Below, piece after piece: positions 1,526 through 61,425 of a DNA stretch of 64,000 bases (the stretch's first letter is position 1; every line of letters starts with the position of its first letter). The notes beneath the pieces were generated by a model, which was not told where the DNA came from, searched no databases, and was given only the letters and a program-made list of their open reading frames with translations. The translations under genes and the position numbers were made by a program. The stretch covers positions 620,001 to 684,000 of the forward strand of contig JAGTXK010000091.1 of NCBI GenBank assembly GCA_019096195.1, in the 5' to 3' direction. The DNA is from Boletus sp. NGJ (taxonomy: Eukaryota > Basidiomycota > Agaricomycetes > Boletales > Boletaceae).

Positions 1526-3479
1526 TCAGGTAAAGAAAACAAGGTTGGTGGGCAACAACGTTTCGACTAACGTCAGGGAGAGCCCTTGAGAGGCGCTGAA
1601 GGGGAATGAAAGAAAAAAAAAAAAAAAAAAAAAACAGGACGCGTATTACGGCGAATGTCGTATGTTGAAACTCGCCGCTAAACTTTGTGTATGACTTCGC
1701 TTCTCGCTCAAATTTCCACCCTTGTTTTTTTTATCTACTACCCGCGACCCGGCGACCGTGACGACGGCTTAATGTCCGCCAGCCATCTCGACCCATGCTG
1801 TACGTATTGGCCCCATTCAGCGTGCCATAGAGACCAGTTGCGAGCCAGCACTGTACTTTGCCAGACGTGGTTCGGACGCTTCTTGAATTCAGTTTGGATT
1901 CAAGGGTTCGTTTGTAGTAGGAACGAAGTGGGTCTCCATTCGCCAAGTGAGTTTCAAATCCATGCTCCGTCGGAAGATTGCTGATGAAAATCTCCATCAT
2001 TTGTCTGATGCAGTTGGATAGGCTCTCAGTGATAGGCTGTGTTTGCCCGGTGCGAGCATCCTAATTCCCGCAGCAACTCGGGATAAGAGTCAGCTGTCGG
2101 ATCGATGCGGTCGTCGAAGTGTATGAATACCTCTGGATCAACAGATTGACAAGTCGCACGAATTGATATTCTGCCCTCCGCCATGTCCATGTCCCTACAC
2201 TCGGCTCCCGTTGATTCACATGGCAAGCAGCCCCTCTCTCCCGCCTATCATGAATTCCCTGCCCCCATAAAGACATCCTCCGCCGGATTTGATTTCCATG
2301 GCGAGTCTGACAGAACTCCTCCTAGTATTTTGCTTAGGATGGTATAGTATATTATATGCACAGTTCTCCTGAACAGACTGAATATGCAAGGCAACTCCAT
2401 GCGCGTATTGGACGCGAGTTCCCTGAGGCAAGGGCCTGTTGTGCTGTCTCGTTTTCGTTGCTTATTTGTTCACCCAATAGTTCCCCCTCTACCGGCTTTG
2501 GGACAGACCAATCGGTATGTCAAAAGTCCAATCATTGAATTGTGGATATGCATGACCCACGGGTCAGGGCCGCACCCGACTGCTATGTTTGAGGTCAACA
2601 CATTTAATCCCCATCAAACAGGAGCGCTCTTTTCTTGGCTCGTCGTGCATCGTGGCCCCTGCGAGTATGAGATTCAGCCAATTGTACTACAAATGGCAGC
2701 TAATGCCATGCCTTTACCAGTGTCTTCATTCATCCAAACACCGGTAATCCGTACAGGGACCATACGGAGCTCGCCACATGGATAGGAAGTCGTTGGCCGT
2801 TAAACTTGGATATCCTGAAATCATGAAATTGGTTGCGTTTCCGGCTGGTACACGTCTGTGACTTGCTATGTGGCGCTCGTCATGCGGTGGATGAGCTCGA
2901 AGATGGTCCCCACTCTCACAATACATCTTCGCTGTGCACTTGTTAGGAGCCACGCCAGCGTGTACAATTGGTTTCGGTGCCATATTTCACCACGGTCTCG
3001 GATGCACCTAGTGAGGCCTCCGTGCTGTCATATTTAGAACCATCAAAATATATTCGAAAGTCTGGCAATCTGCTTCGCGTAGATAATTTCGGACAGTACT
3101 TATGATAACCAGTTTTGTATCTCCCCTTGTACTAAAAACAATTTCTCGAGAGGGGTTTGATTGAGAAAGCCAAGACAGGGCCGTAAAATATTGAAACCCC
3201 GAACATGCACTTGCCTGAATTCTTGATCGGCGTGATTGCCTCTGAGACTCCTGTCACTGACTCATTTTTTCTTTCCAAAATTTCATAGAGTTCTAGCCAA
3301 GAATCTCCCTAGGACAAAAAATTTGGATTCGAGTAATTCGCGAGTTGTCCAAAAAAGTTCGAACACTGCGTCAAGTATAGTGCGGTGGCACTGGAGAGAT
3401 CCGATCCACGAACCGTCATAAGCATAGCTGACACGCATGTGATTTGATTCTTGACCATCGTCCTTTACCATCATCTTCC
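1526..3479. other. Long intergenic region without a confident gene
   Basis: About 1.95 kb between the divergent RING and CBS genes. The first part is the promoter of the RING gene. On the minus strand at roughly 1730-2230 there are two adjacent open stretches (EGRISIRATCQSVDPEVF and MMEIFISNLPTEHGF) that look protein-like, but I recognise no family and no clean gene. Short open stretches at 2384-2983 match nothing I know. The sequence before 3480 is presumably the CBS promoter. I see no tRNA. Confidence 0.5.
1613..1634. repeat. A22 homopolymer (T22 on the RING gene strand)
   Basis: Twenty-two consecutive A residues on the + strand, about 90 bp upstream of the RING gene start. On the gene's own strand this is a poly-T promoter tract, which is common in fungal promoters. 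No retroposed coding sequence precedes it, so it need not be a poly(A) tail. Confidence 0.9.
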
Positions 3480-4961
3480 ATGGCCACTTCCCGCTACATT
3501 CTGGACAATGCCCTCGATGCTGTGGGTAATACGCCCATCATCCGACTAGACAAGATCGCTGCTGAGGAAGGCCTCAAATGCAACCTACGTATGCGCTTGC
3601 CACAATTTCGCTCATGGTTCGGAAGCATAAACAACCTTATCTTTATAGTGGGCAAGGTCGAATTCCTCTCTGTGGGCGGCTCAGTCAAGGATAGAATCGC
3701 CAAGGCAATGGTGCTTGCTGCGGAGAAGGAGGGCAGACTCATTCCCGGACAGAGCGTCGTTATCGAGCCAACCTCTGGCAACACAGGTCTGTTCCTTCAC
3801 ATATCATGCATGCGGCTTATCTGAGACGAGAGGACGAACAGGTATCGGTCTCGCTATGGCGTGTGCAATCAAGGTACTACCAATTGCCTCCAGGTTGATT
3901 GGTTGCTGAATACGGTAGATAAGGGATATTCCGTTATCATCACCTTGCCTAATAAGATGTCCCGGGAGAAAGAAGCGCTCCTTCGAGCACTCGGAGCCAA
4001 AGTCATCCGCACACCTGATGGGGAACCTTGGGATTCCCCCAACAGCCATATAGGTAGAACCCCCACTGTGTCTCTCGCACCCCTCGTGGCTGAATTCCTT
4101 AACGATCGTAGGAGTGGCGCAGCGGCTGCAGCGTGAAATTCCGCACGCCGTCATTCTTGATCAGTATGGTAACGTCCGTATCACAGCTCGTTTGGCTCGG
4201 GCGAATCCTTACAGTCAACAGGTAAATAACCCATTGGCTCATGAATACGCGACTGGGCCAGAAATTATCGATGCAGTCATTTCTACTCCATCCTCTCCGT
4301 TGAGACCATCGTCCATGAAAGTCGATGCTTTGATCGCTAGTGCAGGTACCGGAGGCACCATCACTGGGATCTCTCGCGCATTGAAGAAAACCCACAATTC
4401 TGACTGCATTGTCGTTGGAGTGGATCCAGTCTGTGTCATTCACTGTCGTATGCATTGTGGTTATTGATGTGTGACCTATAGGTTGGCAGCATTCTCGCAT
4501 TTCCTGACACCCTCAATGATCGCGTTGGCAGCCCCTACGTCGTCGAGGGCATTGGCTACGACTTTATTCCAGAAGTCCTTTCGAGGGACCCAGGCGACGT
4601 TGACACTTGGCTAAAGACAACTGACGAAGAGGCCTTTAAAGCCGTTCAACGCCTCATGAGGAAAGAGGGACTCCTTGTCGGGGGTAGCAGTGGCAGTGCA
4701 CTCAGTGGTACTCTAACCTGGTTGAAGTCCAAGCAAGGACGCAAGTTCGCCGACACAGAGGGTATGAATGTTGTTGTGCTGTTACCAGATGGGTGAGTAT
4801 GCTGGGCCTTCCGGGGGAACGCTCTGATCAAAATTCACTCTAGTATTCGAAACTACATGAGCAAGGAATGGTTCTTAAACTTGGCGCTGCGCTCGGAACC
4901 ATCCCCTCTCGCGGATCAGTCCGACGAGTTGGAAGCATCAATGCGACGTGCATCGTTGTAA
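3480..4961 (+). CDS. CYS4: Cystathionine beta-synthase-type PLP enzyme, catalytic core only
   Basis: PLP-dependent beta-replacement enzyme of transsulfuration: serine plus homocysteine to cystathionine. About eight exons; approximate limits are 3480-3588, 3649-3786, 3842-3873, 3924-4053, 4112-4173, 4222-4428, 4480-4796 and a last exon ending in TAA at 4961. Visible motifs: [13 protein letters not shown]; the PLP lysine in GGSVKDRI; the substrate loop [12 protein letters not shown]; the PLP phosphate-binding glycine loop [11 protein letters not shown]; the CBS-type [10 protein letters not shown]; and GGSSGSA. These favour CBS over O-acetylserine sulfhydrylase. The protein ends soon after [13 protein letters not shown], so the paired C-terminal CBS (Bateman) regulatory domains of many fungal and animal enzymes are absent. 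The stop is followed closely by the convergent RFC3 gene. No haem-binding N-terminal extension is seen. Confidence 0.9.
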
Positions 4962-5149
4962 ACCGAAGCAGTTGGAGCAGCATCGATAATCATGGAGGTC
5001 TAATAGGCGTATGTTAGAGAGCATCGCAGTTGGGTATTTGTAACATTAGCAAGCATTTTGATTCAGCGAACATAGGTAACTGCGAGTCGAGAGGACTACT
5101 CGGATGGAAATTAGTGGCGAGTGCCTCCAAAAGGAGTGGTATCCAATAC

Positions 5150-6539
5150 TCAGGTCACTTTGGACTGCAATTCAACGGTGTTCTTGAAAGCACCTAGCAG
5201 GGCTGATAACTGGATTTTCTCGCTAGCTCCGGTTGATAGTCTGTGTCTGGAAGAAAAGGCAAAAAATCTCGTCGACGAATCAGCAGACGTTGACGTTGCT
5301 ACTCACTCTATGGTTGCAAGGAAGTCCAACAAGGTACACCCGGGCCTGGGGTTTGAAATCGATTGTTTCCACATACTCGTACGCACCAGAAAGCAAGTCT
5401 TGAAGTGCAAGTCCTCGCTCTGTCTTCATGGCCGTTATCACTGCGGAATTGCACATTGGTCCCAATCAGCTCCAATTACGTTTGTGGCAAGCAACATACT
5501 CTGTATCGACGTCGTGAATTCATCCGAGAGCATCGAGTTGACTATCGTCTCAATGTCCGATGGATGTGGACTTCCAGTACAATTGTAGACTTCCGTCTCC
5601 CCCTACTGTGTCATAGGCAGCATGGCATGCCTGAAGGACATTCAGTGCTCTTCGCATATCACCCTTCGAGAGCTTAAGAAGTGCTTGCTTTCCATCAGGG
5701 GTTAATTTCGCTCTGGTACATGTATTCAGGTGCGCCTGTGTGAAGGGGTCACATTCTTTGGCACTCACCCTTCGGCCTCTACGACAATGTCCACTCTTTT
5801 CTCAACCTCCACGATGGGTAGAGGAGAGAACCGGAACCTTGTACATCGACTTTGAATCGCAGGGGCAATTTTGTTCACATAATTACAAATGATGCAGAAA
5901 CGAACATTTTTGGTGTATTGTTCGATCACACGGCGAAGAGCTGCTTGGGCTGCCTGTGTCATCATGTCCGCTTCATCGAGAATGATGAGCTTGTAGCCCT
6001 TTGCGAACAGTGTGCGCGTTTCAGCAAATTGCTTGATTTGTTCTCGTACGACGTCAATTCCTCGGTCGTCCGAAGCGTTTAGCTGACATGATCTCAGAGT
6101 GTTGCGACGAGTCCGCGTAAGACGCACGCACCTCCAGGATTTGCTTTCTGTACTCGTTGCCATATATTCGTCTTGCAACAGCCAATATAGTCGATGTCTT
6201 TCCGGTCCCTGGTGGGCCATAGAAGAGCAAGTGTGGCAGTCTATTTTTCTCGATAAACCTCTCGACTGCAATCAAGCATGAGCGATTTTCTAAACGACCC
6301 AACGACGATGCCCACTTGTAGTCGTGATGTCTTTATGAGAAACGACATCGCTGAGCGAGACTGGTCGGTATTTTTCTACCCTGAAAGGATAGTCATGAAC
6401 ATGTGAGCCCGAGACGCGTTTGACGAGGGACATACCAGGGCAATGAATCGCTGTGAGCGATAATGTCTACAGCTTTTTCCTTCCCTTTGGACGCGGAAGG
6501 GATAACAGCGTCTATGTCCATCTCGTCGTCGCTATCCAT
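5150..6539 (-). CDS. RFC3: Replication factor C subunit 3 (human RFC5 type), AAA+ clamp loader
   Basis: Small RFC subunit that helps load PCNA at primer-template junctions. The protein starts with an acidic leader ([10 protein letters not shown]), then [14 protein letters not shown], Walker [14 protein letters not shown], Walker [10 protein letters not shown], the arginine-finger SRC motif IQSRCTRF, sensor 2 [12 protein letters not shown], and the C-terminal collar ending HRLS...[12 protein letters not shown]. At least six short introns are visible. Two places break the frame by one extra base: a G5 run at about 5599-5603 (between DTV and ETEVYNC) and about 5331-5340 (between ARVYL and LDFLATIE). 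Both flanks match the family, so the gene is identifiable, but the sequence as given does not read through. It converges on CBS and diverges from ubiquitin-S27a. Confidence 0.88.
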
Positions 6540-41510: not shown

Positions 41511-41706
41511 CCTTTTTTTTTTTTTTGCTTTTACCGCCCGTCTTGCCAGCACGATGTGCCCATGCTCTATCTTTTTCCCGAGATCGATATCCTACGTATG
41601 TTTTCGCGTAGCAGTACTTTAGGAACGAGGACGTAGTTCTACAGCTCTCTAGGCAACGGGTATTACTATGCGTTGCGCTGCAAGTCTGTGCCACCTCTGC
41701 CCAATT
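41511..41706. other. 3' flank of ZW10 up to the transposon; includes T-run and TSD copy
   Basis: A T-run follows the ZW10 stop (about 41513-41526). The last six bases, CCCAAT at 41701-41706, are the left copy of the target duplication of the transposon that starts at 41707. Confidence 0.7.
41701..41706. repeat. Target site duplication, left copy (CCCAAT)
   Basis: Identical to 48914-48919 immediately outside the right terminal repeat. Confidence 0.85.
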
Positions 41707-41743
41707 ATGGTATGGTAAACCACGGAAAATTCCGCGAAATTTC
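41707..41743 (+). repeat. Left terminal inverted repeat (37 bp perfect core)
   Basis: Begins TATGGTATGGTAAACCACGG; identical, inverted, to 48877-48913. Just inside it, the CGCGAAATTT motif recurs about 23 bp later before AGAGCCATT, while the right end has one copy. The left end therefore carries a short partial duplication. Confidence 0.9.
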
Positions 41744-41892
41744 TTTGACCCAGCGCGCGAAATTTAGAGCCATTCATTGCGCGACTTTTTACTAATGCTG
41801 CCGCGTTTTTTTTCACTTGCGCACTGCGCTCTTTTTTTTTAATCACCTATGTGAGTAAGAGATGAGAATTACTAGTTTGTAACAATAGGCAA

Positions 41893-43200
41893 TCAATTGT
41901 ATTGCCTGAGAACTATCTCAATTTCCTGTAAGCCCAAGATGCTTCTCGTCTGCTCGACCTTCTCCTTCGCCGAGCCATCCACAATGCCCCCATCTTCATC
42001 ATCGCTGATAGTGTCTCGAACCAGGTATCCAGAGCGGCCCTGAACTCGCCAGCTATGCATGGCGTCAGACCTGAGAAGTTCGACATATTGTCCTCCTCCC
42101 AGCCTTGTTCGTCGCCTGTGCCATCCTTGCAGAGCATTGGCATCTGCTTGACAGCACCCTTGTGACGTGTTGATGGGGCACACATTGGCTTGACCGGCTG
42201 CTGCGCAGAGATGATAGTGTCCTCGTTCTTAGGATGTGCCTGGGTCGCAATGGCTTTGCCAGAAAAAATTCCCTTGACGAAGGGATTGATTGATCCAACC
42301 CCTTCAGCGCTATCTGCTGCACAAACACTAGACCTGTGGAGAAGTGAGACAAAGTTGGGGTTAAGGGAGTCAAGATTGTGGTTGAGGAAGCCATCAGAGG
42401 AATATATCACAGGGCCGTTGAAGTGGTTGACGGTGAAAGTCGGGTAACCCAAACGGTTGATCGCCCCGACCTTCTGAAGGACCGGAGTTACTTGAGGGTG
42501 TCGGGACTTGGCTTCACCTTATATGGTGCGCCCTTGCTCGAGTCCGATGTCCTGGATTTCGAAGACGTAGGAGGATCAGAGGTTTGGACTCGACGTAGTC
42601 GAACGTCAAGTCGAGCAGAGGGTCGGAGTGAGTCGTTGAGACTCAGACGGGAGACAGGAGGAGTGTTCAGAGTTGATATTCCAACTGACTTTACAGGAGT
42701 AGTACAGAGGGTTTATATACGATCAGAACGAAGGTATTAGTAATGGAGTTCGTAAGGTGCAATGAGTAACGGAACGGAGATGGGACCTCGCCGGAGCAGT
42801 GCTCCTAAGCGAGATAGACACTGGGTCGGAGACAACTATAAGGCAGGACTAGGACGGATGAAGAAGCATAGGTTATGTACGAAAGGAGAAGTATGAATAC
42901 TATAGTGAGGGTGTTACAAGTCCGAGGGTATGAGGACGTACTCCGAGGGTGAACTCGCTGCCAGAGTTATGGACAGAGTGCTGGAGTTGGACTTGTCGAA
43001 TTACACGGGATATGACAGTCGTCCATGATGTGGATGATGCCACCGGGCTTGTTCTGCAAAAGTCGAACACACTCGGCATTGTCAAAGTATGGCACTGAGG
43101 GGACAAAATGAGAGATGCCCTCTGTCTGATATTCGTCAACGTATGACTCGAAGATACGTTTCTGGATGAAGTTCTGCAAGCGCTCACTGGTGAAGTTGAT
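41893..43200 (-). pseudogene. Captured fragment of a myosin-motor chitin synthase (motor domain only)
   Basis: Inside the transposon, minus strand. Around 43190-42990 it reads CINFTSERLQNFIQKRIFES, then VPYFDNAECVRLLQNKPGG and IHIMDD. From about 42470 to 41913 it reads GYPTFTVNHFNGPVIYSSDG, then NPNFVSLLHRSS, NPFVKGIFSGKAIATQAHP, QQPVKPMCAPSTRHKG and GEFRAALDTWFETLS. These follow, in order, the second half of the myosin head of fungal class V/VII chitin synthases (myosin-CHS fusions). No chitin synthase catalytic part is present. Between the two blocks, about 42500-42960 is extra sequence, partly an open Ser-rich stretch. The fragment is broken and cannot make a motor. It is a passenger acquired from a host gene by the element. 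Confidence 0.85.
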
Positions 43201-43329
43201 GCAAAATTAATTGAGGGAATTGGGCCGACTTATCATGTTTTGTGGACCAGGACATGATCAGAGTGGTCAATGCCGAGACGCCAGTACTGAGTCTTGTCAG
43301 CAAGACAGGAAATCCTTTCAAATCATGTC

Positions 43330-43530
43330 CTCGAACTTGCACAGGGCGACGGGTTTGACGTTGAGTTCCCACTCAAGGTACTGGCACATCTGGCACCTCA
43401 TTTGGTTGATCTCTTGCAGCTAAGACATGCCTTGAACGACGATGGACCACGATTTGTTGGAGTAAGTGTCGTCGCAGATGACCTTGGATGCGAGCATGAG
43501 GGCAGATACGAAGAGGCGGTGGCCAGATGA
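43330..43530 (-). pseudogene. Captured fragment of a PCL-type cyclin
   Basis: Minus strand inside the transposon. It reads HRLFVSALMLASKVICDDT, then YSNKSWSIVVQGM, LQEINQM, and CQYLEWELNVKPVALCKFED. That is the core of a fungal cyclin N-domain: the helix-3 FxSALMLASK motif, the D-x-Y-SN-x-xW turn, and the EIN...M...LEWELN helix. It matches Pho85-cyclin-like proteins of basidiomycetes and is only a small part of such a gene. It is broken. It lies next to the chitin-synthase fragment, same strand, so two unrelated host genes have been brought together in the element. Confidence 0.8.
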
Positions 43531-43903
43531 TTCCCATGTGAATATCTGGCACATAACTTGGAGGATTGCTCATGACTGTAAAATGGGTCCTGGCGGCTGG
43601 GAGGTGAGGGCTTTGAGGGGCCGTGACTGAGGAGGGGACAGGGTGAGGAAAATAGTAAATAGATGACCAGCTGTAAATGGACTGTGTCACTGGTGGTGAT
43701 ATAGTGGTGCTGGGTGGTACCTAGTAATAGGCTGGGGAAGAGTCCTGCCAGTCACTGACAGACCGTATCATGATAATCAAACCAACTATGATTATGAAAA
43801 CCCAAATCATCTAGTCACATGCATCGACATGAAAGTAGGCCACCCGGAGGTGAATATTACGGTGAGTGGAATAACGGAGATTGGAACACTTAATGTATGC
43901 GTG

Positions 43904-45604
43904 TTAATAGTCGTCTCCAAGGAAATAATCCTCAGACCATGGATTAATCCATGGTGGCAGAGCAAAAGGATTATTTGGGTCAGGTATCCTGCGAAGGTAG
44001 ATATCGTCAAATGTTGGGTCTACAAAGTAAACTGGACGGGCGATGTTCCATTGTGTCTGTGGCTGAACAGGTGAAAGAGACATCCGATTCATAAGTTTGC
44101 TCGGAAGGTCCTCGGCTTCAGATGACAGAAACACTGAAATTCAAAATGAGTATATCGTCGTCAACAAGCTGAATTCAGAGACTGACATGGAACGTCTTCT
44201 TGCTTCAAGTTTGTGTTACCATCTGGACCATCTCATCCTAAGTCAACATTATCATAGTGGTGAGATGATTGATTTCTCACGAGCACTGCTAGCGTTGTCC
44301 ACGATTTTCCTTTGTTTCTTCTGCAGAGGCATTTCAATGTTGAGATCGGAGCTGAGCTCTATGATGTCCGGTTGTGTCCGTTTCAGCTTCTTACTTCCTA
44401 TAGTGACCATTGTTATCACAAGCGCTAGTCTTTCCAGACAAAGTTGACTTACCTCGAGTGGCCTGTAAGTTTACAAGCTCTTCAGCATCCGAATCTAGGT
44501 CTGACTGGCTGACTGTATCTATTGTAGTATCATAATCTGGGTCCCACTTTGCTAGATCACTCAAAGGTACTTGCAAACAGATGGCTGTTAAATTATCAAC
44601 TTTGACAGTCAACACTTAGTAGTTATTGAACACGGACCTATGATGACGTTTGAATCCTTTATAGCACATTTTTGATGACCACGATATCGCATGCGAGATC
44701 ATTTCCAGTTGGTTCAGCAACCGGCGCAATTTCATACCGTTGCTTCTCTTTGTTTATCAAGACCCAATTCAGTGTTCCTTCCCTCAACTTTCCCTTTGAT
44801 GTCTTTTCCAGATACCCAAACAGGGATTGGGAATACTACACAACACAAGTAATCGTCCACTTCCTGGTGAGTCCACGTTGTATCAAATGCAAAGTTGTCT
44901 GCTTGCTGAATCCTGGCACATCCACGTTGCTCCATGATATGGATCTCCCCTACAGGTTGGAACCCGGTACTGTTCCAATCGGTTGCCATTGTCCTAGTCA
45001 TTGGCAGTGAGTGTTTTATTTCTCGCGAAATGAAAGCATGATTTACGTTGAGGAAATTTACAAGACACATCCAAGCTCCTACTTTGATCTGTGTTGACTC
45101 GAAGCCACAATCACGGCTGGTGGATGGTCGACTGCAGGAAGTTCCTCGACCTTGGAGAGCTTGGGACTGGTAGATAGTGGTGAGTGGCAGTGAATTCTCA
45201 CAGTGAAGAGAACTACCTTGTTCCTTGCTCACCCTCCTATAGCCTTAGGCGGTGCACCAAATCCAAGATTACAGAATCCCTTCAATACGTTGTCCTTTGG
45301 TATGCCAAGGCTCTCTCTTGCCCGTTCGAATCTAACGTCCTTTAAACACAGCTCAGGGTCTATTTGTTCCCTGAATACATTGAGTACTTGTTGCCAGCCA
45401 GTTGTCACAGGATTTTCTGGTCGAATTGGTGCCTGTGAGCTTTAAATTTCGACAAGAGCAGTGGGAATGCTTGCTAAAGCCATGCCCACATTCCTGGCAG
45501 AGTCGTTGCATGGTAGGGTCAGGCTCAGAGAAAAATTCACAGTGACATTGTTCACCACTATCCAGCAACTGCCGGCAAAATGCTGGGTCTGGCCTGTCTG
45601 ACAT
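43904..45604 (-). CDS. Unknown Cys-rich gene carried by the transposon (probably decayed)
   Basis: Not recognised. The N-terminus reads MSDRPDPAFCRQLLDSGEQC, then CEFFSEPD and CQECGHGFSKHSHC, a pattern of spaced Cys/His that could bind zinc. A further exon reads QVLNVFREQIDPELCLKDV and ESLGIPKDNVLKGFCNLGFG. Later stretches include PKLSKVEELPAVDHPPAVIV and KEKQRYEIAPVAEPTGNDLA. The last open part reads WNIARPVYFVDPTFDDIYLR and ends PPWINPWSEDYFLGDDY. Exon-like pieces lie in several frames; some are introns, others suggest decay. It could be the element's own second gene or another captured host gene. Only its position, between integrase and captured fragments, is certain. Confidence 0.45.
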
Positions 45605-45845
45605 GCTATCAATGACAGCTGGGATGTTGTGATAGCAAAGAATGTCATGACCCAGTAGAGCACGTTAGCAAGTGTGGTTGAAAAGCAGGAACAAGTCTGT
45701 TGATGTGTACGAGACAAATTTATAGTCACACCGCATACACACTAACAATGAGTCGAAAGCAAACTGTACATTTGAAACCTATACTTCAGCAGCTCGACCA
45801 GCTGCTTGAAATACTGAGAGTAGCTCTATAGCTTGTACCCACAGC

Positions 45846-47690
45846 TTAATCTGTGCACTCCAGATTGGATCCGTCAACGATATAGTAAGAGTCCTTGATT
45901 GCTGAAATCCCAAAAGGGATGACTTCGACCATCTCTGCCTCGTTGTCATCAAGTTCCCCTTCCAGCAGGCCATATCCCTCTGGTCTCACGTCTTCATCAA
46001 TAAGTCTTCTGAGTATATCAAAGTAGTCCTCCTCGTCTTTGATTGTGAATGGTGATAGCTGTGTAGGGACCTCAACCCCACCACGGTTGTTGGTATCAGC
46101 ATTGTCGCCACATATGCCTTGTTGAGTCCGAGTTTGATTTGCATCCCTCTCACCTTCAGTGGCGCTGTGAGATTCATTATCATAGATGCCCATGCATTGC
46201 GATGCTGAGAAAACGCAGGTCCTAATCAATAAATTTCGTCAGATGCCTCATGGATGCTGGTCAGCTTTGGCATCTTACCTGTGGACTCTTGTAACCAGCC
46301 ATGTTCGCCCGGGGTGGAGATTCCATTCGTTCTGGAAGGTCTCACAGTCTTCGTTGATGGAATCAATAAAAAGGCTATGTAGAAGCCAAAGATGTCCTAT
46401 ATTATTGATGTTGAGGCCATGAAGCCGCTCAAGACACATGAAAAATGCCTTCCAGCGACGTATGAATTGACTTCCAACCTCAACCCAGAGTCGCTCAATT
46501 TGAGTATTGTGTGTTGACCTAAGTTTCTGTCAATCGTCTGCCAAAATATGATGTTACAATATATGAGCCCCATAGGAAGAATCCTCAAATAGATCCACGT
46601 TTTTCCACCATATATGTTGCAACATCAACATTTTCTCCTCCATGGTCACCCCAGACATGAGATGGCAAGCCATAGCATCTCATTGCATCAATGAACAGAT
46701 TCATCACCATAGATGCCTAATTGTTCGTGCTTGCTTGAATTGCAGTGACCTTTTAAATTTAAATGAGTATCTGATTACTCCAAAAGAAAAGAAAATTACA
46801 GTGCAACAGTATCCCATCAATCATTGCATGAACAACAAACCCCCAACAGATTAGCCTATGATGACCGTCCAGGTGCCACAGCGCATTCAACCATTTTACC
46901 GTATATGTGCGTCTTTTGATAGGTCAATTTTCCTGTAACCATCTACCCAGTCCGTCAACATGACAGAGTGATTGTCAAATGCAATACTCCTGAACACGAA
47001 GACCTTGCTGCCGCAAGAAGCCAATTAGATACCGAAGTCCAGACTCAGGCTTTGCAGTTTTGAACAACTGTACAAAACCATCAAGTTTGTCATCACTAAT
47101 ATCTGTGTAGCGCTTCGCAATGCCATGTTCATGCAGGTATGGCCACAACGTATCAGTATGAATACCCAGAACTTTCACAATTTCCATATACTTGAGTTGG
47201 CGGTATGTGGATGTCGCTTCGGCCAGAAACTCAACATTGATGAGTTTCCTCGGTCGACCTCGCTTTCCAGTGTGTCCAAGTGTCACAAGGTGTGGGCGCC
47301 AGATGAGCTCCTCATCACTGAATGAACAAAATATGAACTGCTGTTCACTGATAGAGTTAAAAACTAATACCATTCAGTAACACTTGCACGGAGAACTTGC
47401 AAACTTTGAAAGATGTCTGCAAACAGTGCTGAAACACTTTTCAGCCAGCCAATCAGTGGGATGTCACCTTCAGATTCTTCGTTACCCATGGGAGCGAGCT
47501 CCAAAAGAATTGGGAGCACATTGGATGTGATTCGGTCAATATGGAATCCAATCCTTGTTGGATTTGCACCATCTGTTGAGAGTGCCTGCATTGCATGGTG
47601 ATAGATATTTTGAAGATGTTGATAGGCTGAATATACTGTAGAGATTGGTGGAGGTTTGGGGAACTCTGACCAGTCGCCTTGTTCCACCAT
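45846..47690 (-). CDS. RVE/DDE integrase-like transposase of the TIR element
   Basis: Probable start [12 protein letters not shown] at 47690. A helical N-terminal part ([20 protein letters not shown]) is followed by a helix-turn-helix region with [15 protein letters not shown] and [20 protein letters not shown]. The catalytic core follows: WHLDGHH with ID (first Asp), [15 protein letters not shown] (second Asp), and [15 protein letters not shown] (Glu), then [19 protein letters not shown] and an acidic tail. The wording matches the integrase-core family widespread in mushroom genomes. It would cut and join the element's ends. Some stretches do not read cleanly, so the copy is probably inactive. 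It is divergent from the BTB gene with 62 bp between starts. Confidence 0.8.
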
Positions 47691-47752
47691 TGCAAGACTT
47701 GACAACGGGAACTGTATTATGTCAGCATCAATCAACTTTGCACTCGTGTCCC

Positions 47753-48763
47753 ATGAACGCAAACAGTCAACCAAAGCAGTTGCGCCATCCCAACTTTTTT
47801 TTTGATGATGGCACCCATATCCTACAGGTTTGTCCAATTTTTAATATGAGGTTTGCTCGTTGATAAATCAAACAATAGGCTCAGGACGGACAGTACCTTT
47901 TCAAGGTGCATAAGAGTATCCTTTCGGCGAAGTCGGAAATGTTTGAAGACATGTTCAGAGCCCAACATGAAGCTGGTATCATTGCTTTAGATGGGCAAAC
48001 AGAAATTACGCCCATTTTACTGCCTGCTACCGTTGGCGAAACTGCATTCGAACTCTTTTTGTGTGTATGCTACGGAAGGTATGTTTATTTGGCCCAGATA
48101 GTCATCCGCACTCATAAAAATTTGCTATGTTGTAAAGGTGGCGTCCAGACTACCAAAAGGCACCAAATAATGTGGTGTTCCAACTGCTTGAAATTGAGCC
48201 GTATGTTCATGTCCAACGACGCCCGTGAAGTTGCAATCAACGAGATCAATAATCGCCATGTGTCAATACGTCCCTGTCGCCTCATTTCCCTCTCCATCGA
48301 GTACAAAGTCAACCAACTCTTTATGTATGGTTTCAAACGACTCATTAAAGCCCGCATGGACGACCTCACTGACGATGAACATGACATGCTGTGCCCTCGG
48401 CTTTGGGTTACCATCTTGAAAGCACAAAGTACACTCCGGGTTCATCGCAGGATTGTAGCTTGCGAGTTGCTGCCCATAAATCATGTCGCAAATTGCATGG
48501 ATACCGAAGGCTGTTCCCTTGATTGGCAACAGCTATGGTGGAATGGGATGGGGCGTAGTCTTTTGGACGGAAGGAATCCCCAGCCTTACAAGGATGCGGT
48601 CCAACGCTTCGAACAGATTCTATTGACTAACAAGGTCAGAAGGATATTCCCGGAGTGTCTATGCTCAGTGATGGCAACCATTCAGGAAGAGGCAGCTTTC
48701 AATCAGGAAGATGCATTCATTGACCGTGCCGCACGGAAGTGGGCAGCTCAGTTATTGGCATGA
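47753..48763 (+). CDS. BTB/POZ domain protein inside the transposon
   Basis: Exon 1 starts MNANSQPKQLRHPNFFFDDG, ending THILQ. A 51-nt intron joins to AQDGQYLFKVHKSILSAKSE, giving the classical BTB opening (F-D-DG...V-x-LxFKVHKSILSAKSEMFEDMF). Next come LLPATVGETAFELFLCVCYG, an intron, WRPDYQKAPNNVVFQLLEIE, MFMSNDAREVAINEINNRHV and a C-terminal helical part (DWQQLWWNGMGRSLLDGRNP) ending KWAAQLLA. About 300 aa, as in the large Agaricomycete BTB family. BTB proteins dimerise and often recruit Cul3 ligases. Its place between the integrase and the right inverted repeat makes it cargo of the element. It may be decayed around the exon at 48210. Confidence 0.7.
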
Positions 48764-48876
48764 TCACCATACTTATCATAGTTAGATTACATTGTTGTCT
48801 ATAAGTCCTCAAAAAAACATGGCGGCATTGGTGGAAAGTCGCGCAGCGTGATGAGGAATCGCGCACAAATGGCTCT

Positions 48877-48913
48877 AAATTTCGCGGAATTTTCCGTGGT
48901 TTACCATACCATA
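48877..48913 (-). repeat. Right terminal inverted repeat (37 bp perfect core)
   Basis: Reverse complement of 41707-41743. Further inward the sequence still resembles the left end (AGAGCCATT, GCGCGACTTT, ATGCCGCC then a T-run), so the full inverted repeat is roughly 130-150 bp and imperfect. Confidence 0.9.
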
Positions 48914-48919
48914 CCCAAT
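48914..48919. repeat. Target site duplication, right copy (CCCAAT)
   Basis: Identical to 41701-41706 immediately outside the left terminal repeat; lies 61 bp past the MFS stop codon. Confidence 0.85.
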
Positions 48920-59111: not shown

Positions 59112-61425
59112 ATAATCCGCATAGCACGTTCACGTTTGTTTTGGCAAGCATGTATTTAGTACGCGGATATCATTGTGAGGATCTGGTATCATGGTTGTCC
59201 TGAGGGTAATGGTACGAGAAATGATTTCCCTCGAGAGTGATAGTTTGCGAAACCTAAGCGGGAGTCCATATCGTCGATCGTTCTGGAGGCAACTGATGAT
59301 TAATCGCAGCTCTGAACAAGTTTGGTACCCACCTCTTGTTCATTTCGCTGGCCCAGGATATATCTTTTAGAGGCGGAGCGTTGAGAGAAGCACCGAGGGT
59401 TCCGAGTATGAGTGCAACGATGCTCTCGTACACAGTCTTTCAACCGACCAGTCAGAAAGGACATGCCAGGCTATGCAAGCAAAACGTACATTCAGTGGTA
59501 GGCTGCCTTCGGGCTTTCCGAGTGCTTTGAGATGGGACAGATCTAATTGAGTAGCTCAGGAAAGCCAGCTATTGGTAGTGGGGTGTGTAACTTGCCTTCG
59601 TATGCAGAATATGCGGCTGTAGGGGTTGTGAAAATGTGTTCGGATGAAATACGTGTTCCTCGCATCACGCACCGTGAAACAAGAAGATGGTTGCTACCAC
59701 GAGAAGAATCCGACCAAACATATTGTACAAGAGGCGAACCGTGTCAATGATTGAACTTCGGTGACTTTGCCAAACAAACACCCCTAAACACAAACCAAAT
59801 GCTACGTGCGCCGATGCCATTGGACTGGCAAAGTCATCACCCCGGATATTCTGTTCGTCCCGTCGGACTTGTCGTTGTGAATTGAATGGATTGCCAAGCA
59901 CAACACGCCAGTCATTCAAACTTGTGTTTCTGCCCACGGCTGTCATGTGGCCAACCCGCAAACAGCTAGAGGTCGTAGCCGGGTAAGTAAGGAGCCGGTT
60001 TGCCCCGTGATAAGTGCCGTCATCGGACCCAAAGTCGCGTAGACGACGAGAAAAATGGTACATAGATGGATCGTTATCAGCTACACACCCAAAAAACGAC
60101 GGAAAATGTTAGTTTAATATATTTTCAATATCATCACTGCTAAGTACTTAGCTCAGTATGGCATTATATGTGAATACATAGCTAAGATTTCATTTTTGTA
60201 ATGGTATATAATATTATGTAACATCATGTAAGCTATATCATGCTTTGGCAAGGCCAGTGATGTCATTGTGTGAATACAAGTATGAAGGCTGTCTGTGATA
60301 TGGCATATATGTGTGACATAACACCTTGGATGTACACCAGACATCCAGAGAGGCTCCAGGGGTCATTCAGGTGTGTCAGCGTCATTCTCCACGCATCAGA
60401 GAGACATAGGACCGTATGCTGTGCTGCCATAACAGGTAAGATGACTGACTAATTTACTATTGTGATAGAAATGTCTATAATAGTATGTACTACTCAAGTG
60501 TAGCCAACCTTTCCTAACGCTTTGGAACTTGGACAAATTTTTGCGAGTAAAGTCACGTGACAGTTGATTATGTCACATGCAAATTTTTAAGTTGCGGCTC
60601 CAACGCCCTCACGGCACTCAAAAGTGTGCCTGAGCCTCGTCTCTACCCACTTATTTATGTTATTACATTTCAATGTACTGGGATATTCTAATAATTCGAT
60701 CTGTTATGTTAAGCCTGCTGTGCTCGTTGTGCTATTTGAGTGAATGTAAGATCTATTTATATTGCACCAAAACTATGTAAAAACATGGATGTTTACTGGA
60801 TGCCTGCTGGATATTGAGTGGATGCTCGGGTTGGGGTTGTCGACACAGCTGGCTTGAAACATACAATACAGCCGACAAATAAATTACATGCAGCGCGTCA
60901 TAATAACCATGTTGAGCACGTCGCTCACCAAACAATTGACGGAAATCCTCAGCCACACCACTCGCTGGTGTAAGTCGAATTTTGACGTCCACCAGACGTT
61001 ACCTTGACTTGGGTGTGTACGCTCGCGCGAGTACGTCGCGTGACGTATATATCTACTAATCGGCTACTCGGTTTGGATGAATACAGTACATTTCCCAGAA
61101 AGGAAGCCCTTGGAGCCGAGTATAAGTAAAGCACTCGTCCTCCGCTTCCTTAAGATCCCAGTCGATAACCGTATCCGCGTAGCAATTGTACCGCCGTATG
61201 CCAACCGCCTCTTGACACACGCTTTATCTCAGTGCGCCTGTCTCGTGTATAAGTTTCACATCCACACCCTCAAAACACGGACAAGTCCATGTGGGTGCAG
61301 CCGTTTGTCGTCTACGGTCTCATTCTGACGATTTATATCTTCAGTCGAATTACCCATCGTCCAACACACCCACGTTCACTTCATCCTCATCCCTCACCTT
61401 GTACCTTTCCTTTGACTGCGCCACA
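59112..61425. other. 2.3-kb AT-rich intergenic region; one doubtful small ORF
   Basis: No confident gene. A minus-strand open stretch at 59665-60063 has two hydrophobic segments (ASAHVAFGLCLGVFVW and FGRILLVVATIFLF) but no known family. From about 60060 to 60950 the sequence is clearly AT-richer than the rest of the window. Near 60785-60830 it has scattered GGATGC-type units (catggatg, tggatgcc, tggatgct), looking like old repeat DNA. I see no terminal repeats or duplications that would define an element. The part before 61425 is the TRAPPC12 promoter. Confidence 0.45.

Follow-up and report, generated by a model that had tools for sequence, protein, structure and literature searches.

Transposons are known to capture host genes, and even the capture of two genes within mirrored ends has been described, in Turmoil-1. 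This element of C. elegans holds two unrelated host gene fragments close together in mirrored terminal repeats, with intron sequence retained and the 5' splice site lost (PMC2572040), as does the element that we describe here. Among fungi, hAT elements of Dothideomycetes have copied a housekeeping gene, histone H3, and bear one or two copies per element with C-to-T decay (PMC6710886, PMC3538342), likewise resembling our case. The Pack-TYPE transposons of plants share with it the presence of host coding DNA in a DNA transposon (PMC8903248), and the Helitrons of Pleurotus were reported without captured host gene fragments (PMC4289320). The family that concerns us is IS3EU (GingerRoot), which in fungi shows 6-bp duplications, terminal repeats of over 30 bp, TAYGG..CCRTA ends, an integrase-type transposase and a second gene in the opposite orientation (PMC12730594, PMC10045372), all of which are seen at the present locus.

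The stretch of 64,000 nucleotides analysed here, called the window, covers positions 620001-684000 of contig C102 in a genome of 32.8 Mb and 141 contigs, probably that of a basidiomycete to judge by its gene content. It contains a DNA transposon of 7.2 kb at 41706-48913, bounded by a left terminal inverted repeat of 37 bp (41706-41742, plus strand) that is perfectly complementary, at 37 of 37 positions, to the right one (48877-48913, minus strand). A looser similarity between the two ends extends past the left 37 bp to about 41812. The flanks read CCCAAT on both sides (41700-41705 and 48914-48919), a 6-bp target-site duplication, and the termini are TATGG..CCATA. A second element, on contig C35, has the same TATGG..CCATA ends, the duplication GCCTTT and terminal repeats of about 145 bp. 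By these features the window element fits the published fungal IS3EU elements, as does the C35 element; its transposase region has a profile match to the PF24764 integrase core and may belong to the IS3EU clade. The elements on C42 and C121 have related ends that start with TATGATG, i.e. with TA but not with TAYGG. The earlier note on this DNA had held that the enzyme family is not a MULE, and the fit of the bounded element to IS3EU agrees with it.

The transposase region lies on the minus strand at 44735-47840 and has in-frame stops. Its match to PF24764 (rva_4) has an E-value of 1e-15 over 46278-46529 in the Pfam profile search, and tblastn found the region to be similar among the window, C35 and C107 pieces. 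The segment 46564-46752 has two in-frame stops in the window and is open in C35; the window IS3EU-type element is defective. On the plus strand, an ORF of 294 open codons at 47879-48760 is BTB/POZ-like (PF00651, E 2.7e-5). It is 33% identical to the C35 locus and 41% to the C107 locus by tblastn, and since its relatives at C35, C107 and C37 are 23-41% identical, the ORF is a standing cargo of these elements and not a recent capture. The C107 relative holds stops, and the aligning C35 ORF has no Pfam match, so that its BTB label is based on alignment. BTB-like ORFs were observed at L070 5213-6208, at L043 about 4419-5276 and at L048 (C37) 2995-3966, and wherever both were seen at the several IS3EU-type loci, the ORF is oriented opposite to the transposase. 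Its position resembles that of the alpha-kinase gene in the TET-bearing IS3EU elements of rusts (PMC12730594). No relevant paper that mentions IS3EU together with BTB turned up in our literature search.

Beside the left end of the element are pieces of two host genes, a myosin-chitin synthase and a cyclin, both read on the minus strand and both with internal deletions. The chitin synthase part spans 41845-43252, perhaps up to 43304. Its two Myosin_head matches (Pfam) are at 42970-43206 (minus strand, E 1.8e-12) and at 41916-42518 (minus strand, E 7.5e-5), the latter segment by itself scoring 21.6 bits, under the family cut-off of 33.3. In genome DNA searches the window matched the chitin synthase gene on C17 at 91%, 90% and 88% identity over 469, 234 and 158 bp. 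In the coordinates of L040, about 4318-4784 of the C17 gene corresponds to 42005-42472 of the window (91%), 4000-4233 to 43019-43252 (90%, the block with the stronger Myosin_head match) and 4970-5134 to 41845-42002 (88%), all on the minus strand. The last of these holds most of an intron, with 8 bp gone from the intron 5' end, and the match ends just beyond the 3' splice site; the retained intron sequence shows that the piece was copied from DNA. A weak fourth match on the same strand, 43272-43304 to 3506-3538 of the gene (79% over 33 bp, E 0.046), is possibly a further short piece and looks older. The C17 gene looks intact over the tested stretches, with 698 stop-free codons; it matches Myosin_head over positions 87-675 of 679, and Chitin_synth_2 was found on two further ORFs. 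At about 92% identity, we conclude from the alignments that C17 is the intact donor of the window pieces. The two differ at 67 of 803 compared sites. Going from the donor to the captured copy, 46 of these are C-to-T or G-to-A changes, and 38 of the 67 lie at donor CpG sites, which make up 136 of the 437 C and G positions of the donor. The differences at codon positions 1, 2 and 3 number 22, 12 and 33.

The chitin synthase part is split by a dispersed repeat of ~546 bp at 42473-43018 (minus strand), with boundaries given by the alignments. Of its 43 listed genome matches, 42 are other copies at 76-95% identity, one of which covers part of the repeat only. Polypurine-tract-like sequence adjoins two of nine examined copies, which suggests an LTR, and we believe that the repeat is probably a truncated solo LTR. 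Its CpG observed/expected ratio is 1.05, vs 0.66 in the surrounding chitin synthase piece.

The cyclin piece (about 43306-43618, minus strand) matches the Pfam Cyclin family at 43423-43569 on the minus strand with E 7.7e-4 and 20.3 bits, slightly under the cut-off of 21. An intact relative on C89, with an ORF of 491 codons (Cyclin_N, E 5e-11), is 80% identical over 226 bp in the genome DNA search. Decayed pieces on C114 (88% and 84%) and C7 (87%) are nearer: the pieces of the window, C114 and C7 are 84-88% identical mutually vs 68-80% to C89, which leaves C89 a candidate donor. Relative to C114 and C89, the window piece has an internal deletion of roughly 150-175 bp. The C7 piece abuts an IS3EU right end that resembles the window's and is interrupted by about 1.4 kb; this interruption, at L041 4321-5713, falls in the region of the terminal repeat in the C7 copy, whose left end was not found within the 8 kb searched.

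With these data most of what the earlier note had proposed is borne out. That two partial host genes lie on the minus strand within one 7.2-kb element is confirmed by the Pfam and genome matches, the terminal repeats and the duplication. The intact versions that it expected elsewhere exist (C17 at 88-91%, the C89 cyclin relative at 80%), and the chitin synthase piece keeps intron sequence, which it had named as the mark of capture from DNA. Its naming of the genes holds, with the block limits corrected to those given above. The two blocks do lie side by side, with the modification that the chitin synthase part is broken up by the repeat and both parts are internally deleted. A normal host locus, which the note had named as a refutation, can be rejected, as intact genes were found elsewhere and the blocks are inside the terminal repeats. 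Its label of Pack-type capture needs refining: host coding DNA was indeed captured within terminal repeats and a duplication, but the element is not of the classical Pack-type, which is non-autonomous and lacks a transposase gene, since a stop-interrupted transposase region and the BTB ORF are present.

The capture is not a lone one, as the genome DNA searches with the C17 and C89 genes revealed; other passenger-bearing copies, for which the note had suggested a search, form a recurrent pattern. At least 60 matches to the C17 gene were listed. With the gene's match to itself and the three blocks of the window left out, 35 matches are in the motor half and 21 are in or reach into the catalytic half; all genome-wide counts given here are lower bounds. 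One group of IS3EU ends was located at 18 places by a 27-nt pattern (the reversed control pattern gave none), the window's own ends being of another type outside these 18. Among the matches listed, 21 of the 35 motor-half pieces but none of the 21 catalytic-half matches are on the inner side of an IS3EU end and no more than 5 kb from it; the former count rises to 25 of 35 if a transposase within 10 kb is accepted as well. The inner 5-kb flanks of the 18 ends make up 0.27% of the genome, and 10 of the 18 bear a chitin synthase piece among the matches listed. For the other 14 listed motor-half pieces, no IS3EU end was recognised as near as that. Nor are the 21 end-linked pieces independent cases, as 14 belong to C42 and C121, two to C31, and five are C35-type copies of one piece.

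These pieces differ in arrangement between the elements. At the right end of the C42 element, exon 1 is present in five head-to-tail units, together with one later piece, before the terminal repeat begins, and the left side of C42 and both sides of C121 have outward-pointing pieces of the same gene parts. The right-end arrays of C42 and C121 keep intron 1 sequence. These arrays were recognised from alignments to the donor, and Tandem Repeats Finder reported no array in L071. A 54-bp piece common to the five C35-type copies sits exactly 142 bp from the end in each of them and points, relative to the element end, the other way from the C42/C121-type pieces. The window and C35-type elements have pieces at one end only, and a two-ended IS3EU element on C114 (740039-752477) has none among the matches listed. 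C37 (L048 4835-7720) and C31 (L049 4271-7132) have in common, at 94%, a stretch of 2.9 kb with chitin synthase pieces.

The cyclin recurs too, with at least 84 listed matches to the C89 gene, or 82 without the gene itself and the window. Of the listed pieces, 59 derive from a single part of the gene, 127 bp long, and make up at least 21 clusters, 19 of them with two or more units; the other 23 are from other gene parts. Six pairs of clusters on the same contig, 8-17 kb apart, are among the matches listed, and five of the six point outward. Next to the cluster on C103, the single locus profiled, a KDZ transposase fragment (PF18758, E 3.8e-10) was found at about 2.4 kb, separated from the cluster by a copy of the LTR-like repeat. 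The left and right cluster regions of C103 match each other in inverted orientation at 95% over 545 bp. The C3 locus is 96% identical to C103 and thus not independent of it. KDZ elements apparently carry cyclin pieces as well. We had also considered the clusters as parts of LTR-like elements, two of them lying ~800 bp from repeat copies, and dropped this after the comparison of flanks and ORFs and the KDZ match. Four equal-scoring cyclin pieces of 246 bp (C114:400391, C44:684412, C20:139942 and C1:172901) possibly represent another repeat family with the same passenger. In addition, cyclin and chitin synthase pieces are adjacent again at C57:9357-9929 in opposite orientations, cyclin pieces are in scrambled order at C81:301957-302374, and a cluster at C98:29664-30484 is built from a different part of the gene.

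The chitin synthase pieces also differ in divergence from their donor. Outside CpG sites, the three main window blocks differ from C17 at 29 of 667 sites (4.3%) and the short block beside them at 5 of 27, and the pieces of C42, C121, C37 and C7 at 0.10-0.18; the C35-type piece, with 3 of 46, has too few sites for dating. The CpG observed/expected ratio is 1.0-1.1 in the host genes, 0.66 and 0.60 in the chitin synthase and cyclin pieces of the window, 0.79 in the whole C35 element and 0-0.17 in the arrays. By these measures the chitin synthase capture in the window appears more recent than the arrays, and the LTR-like repeat more recent again. The differing divergences make at least two captures of the chitin synthase gene likely. 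For the cyclin there is no indication that captures differ in age: non-CpG divergence from C89 is 0.177 for the window piece, 0.149 and 0.165 for two units linked to KDZ, and 0.247 for C114.

Two stretches of DNA near the element were searched as controls. The first, 8.6 kb of neighbouring host DNA, matched itself and one paralogue-like stretch of about 1 kb at 64%. The second, 14.4 kb on the other side, had 66 matches, of which three, 59-136 bp long, are outside a repeat at 60098-61020 that accounts for the rest; this control is partly spoilt by the repeat, and the window itself is absent among its scored matches. The 60098-61020 region is another dispersed repeat in its own right, with 63 listed matches genome-wide. 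As the controls span few genes, they gauge poorly how special the two donors are.

We consider it likely that the window holds a defective IS3EU-type transposon with copied pieces of host genes, one case of a recurrent process. The element, the donor match, the intron retention, the differing divergences and the position next to element ends are shown by the data. The element would have copied genomic pieces of the motor half of the myosin-chitin synthase and of the cyclin into its left subterminal region; the pieces would later have decayed as non-coding DNA through CpG mutation, and the dispersed LTR-like repeat would have inserted into them. As to recurrence, the same two genes supply pieces to IS3EU elements here and, for the cyclin, apparently to KDZ elements as well; sampling of the chitin synthase gene probably took place at different times, and some elements have outward-pointing arrays on either end. 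By what is generally known of transposons, the copying probably took place by template switching during repair of the excision gap. We speculate, rather tentatively, that recapture is seeded by homology: older fragments at an element end would provide homology to the donor, and gap repair would copy fresh stretches of the same gene. Within the window this seeding rests on the 33-bp match with E 0.046. More doubtful is the wider version, that two superfamilies re-copy both host growth genes since existing fragments guide gap repair to the donor. If true, the transposon would be a ratchet that refreshes near-identical chitin synthase and cyclin sequence, with possible silencing consequences for both sides.

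An alternative hypothesis, which we regard as unlikely, is that each gene was captured once, long ago, and was then inherited and passed between element families. Inheritance does occur, as is evident from the identical piece at 142 bp from the end in the five C35-type copies, and transfer of genes from element to element has been described for the TET/JBP genes of fungal transposons (PMC12730594). The cyclin data agree with it too, since the pieces of the window, C114 and C7 are nearer to each other than to C89, and those of the window and of the KDZ-linked units lie equally far from it. The chitin synthase data point the other way: the window piece is 4.3% from the donor outside CpG sites vs 10-18% for the arrays, is less CpG-depleted and covers other parts of the gene, and the C35-type and C42/C121-type pieces are oppositely directed. 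A further possibility, that there was no capture and that the fragments inserted into the transposon, or the transposon landed in a pile of pseudogenes, seems very improbable to us. Nested insertion apparently does occur here, to judge by the LTR-like repeat, but a pre-existing pile would sit outside the duplication, whereas the pieces are within matching terminal repeats and a perfect duplication, and pieces of the same gene recur at many other IS3EU ends.

Two further hypotheses would give the fragments a use. They could be subterminal repeats that aid binding, either by the transposase or by the BTB protein, and that owe their amplification to this effect. The outward pieces that the C42 and C121 elements have on either side and the five outward cluster pairs of the cyclin, out of six, speak for such a role, but different subfamilies retain different gene parts, the window and C35-type elements have pieces at one end only and the C114 element with both ends has no piece among the matches listed, and we think this explanation improbable. 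Alternatively, small RNAs against the transposon would also hit the chitin synthase and cyclin genes, so that silencing becomes costly to the host. Such camouflage by host gene pieces has been proposed for plants in a review (PMC13317346). The donor read forward shares an exact run of 18-62 nt with 14 of 17 tested pieces, vs at most 14 nt with the 17 pieces when read backwards, and nine of the 17 keep runs of 23-62 nt. Both donors are, we presume, important growth genes, which would fit this idea as well. Against it, the other eight pieces share no 21-nt run with the donor (the cyclin pieces of C7, C114 and C133 have none of 15 nt or more), and the CpG ratios of the arrays suggest methylation, not sparing. 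Camouflage is in our opinion decidedly unlikely. Repeated copying from the donors, as set out above, is the explanation that we prefer.

Pieces of the motor half of the chitin synthase recur at IS3EU ends, listed catalytic-half matches never do, and the same cyclin is found in other repeats. Among the top-ranked open-licence papers we found none that describes IS3EU and KDZ elements as sampling the same genes repeatedly, and our literature search returned nothing relevant on chitin synthase capture by transposons. If the pattern holds in related species, it would provide a natural series of captures with different ages and a known donor, and the mechanism, be it gap repair, homology seeding, camouflage or selection of binding sites, could be directly tested in fungi. 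Compared with the known systems, the locus differs from each in a particular way. Turmoil-1 is a Harbinger, and one element family was described, whereas here the same donors recur in several IS3EU subfamilies and probably in a second superfamily. The histone H3 of the hAT elements is described as captured from a transcript or retrocopy without introns, while our pieces come from DNA, belong to another superfamily and are short pieces and arrays. The Pack-TYPE transposons are described as non-autonomous (PMC8903248); the window element keeps its own broken transposase region. Finally, the cargo described for IS3EU/GingerRoot is TET/JBP and alpha-kinase genes (PMC12730594), and in the element reported here it is a BTB ORF together with non-coding pieces of host genes.
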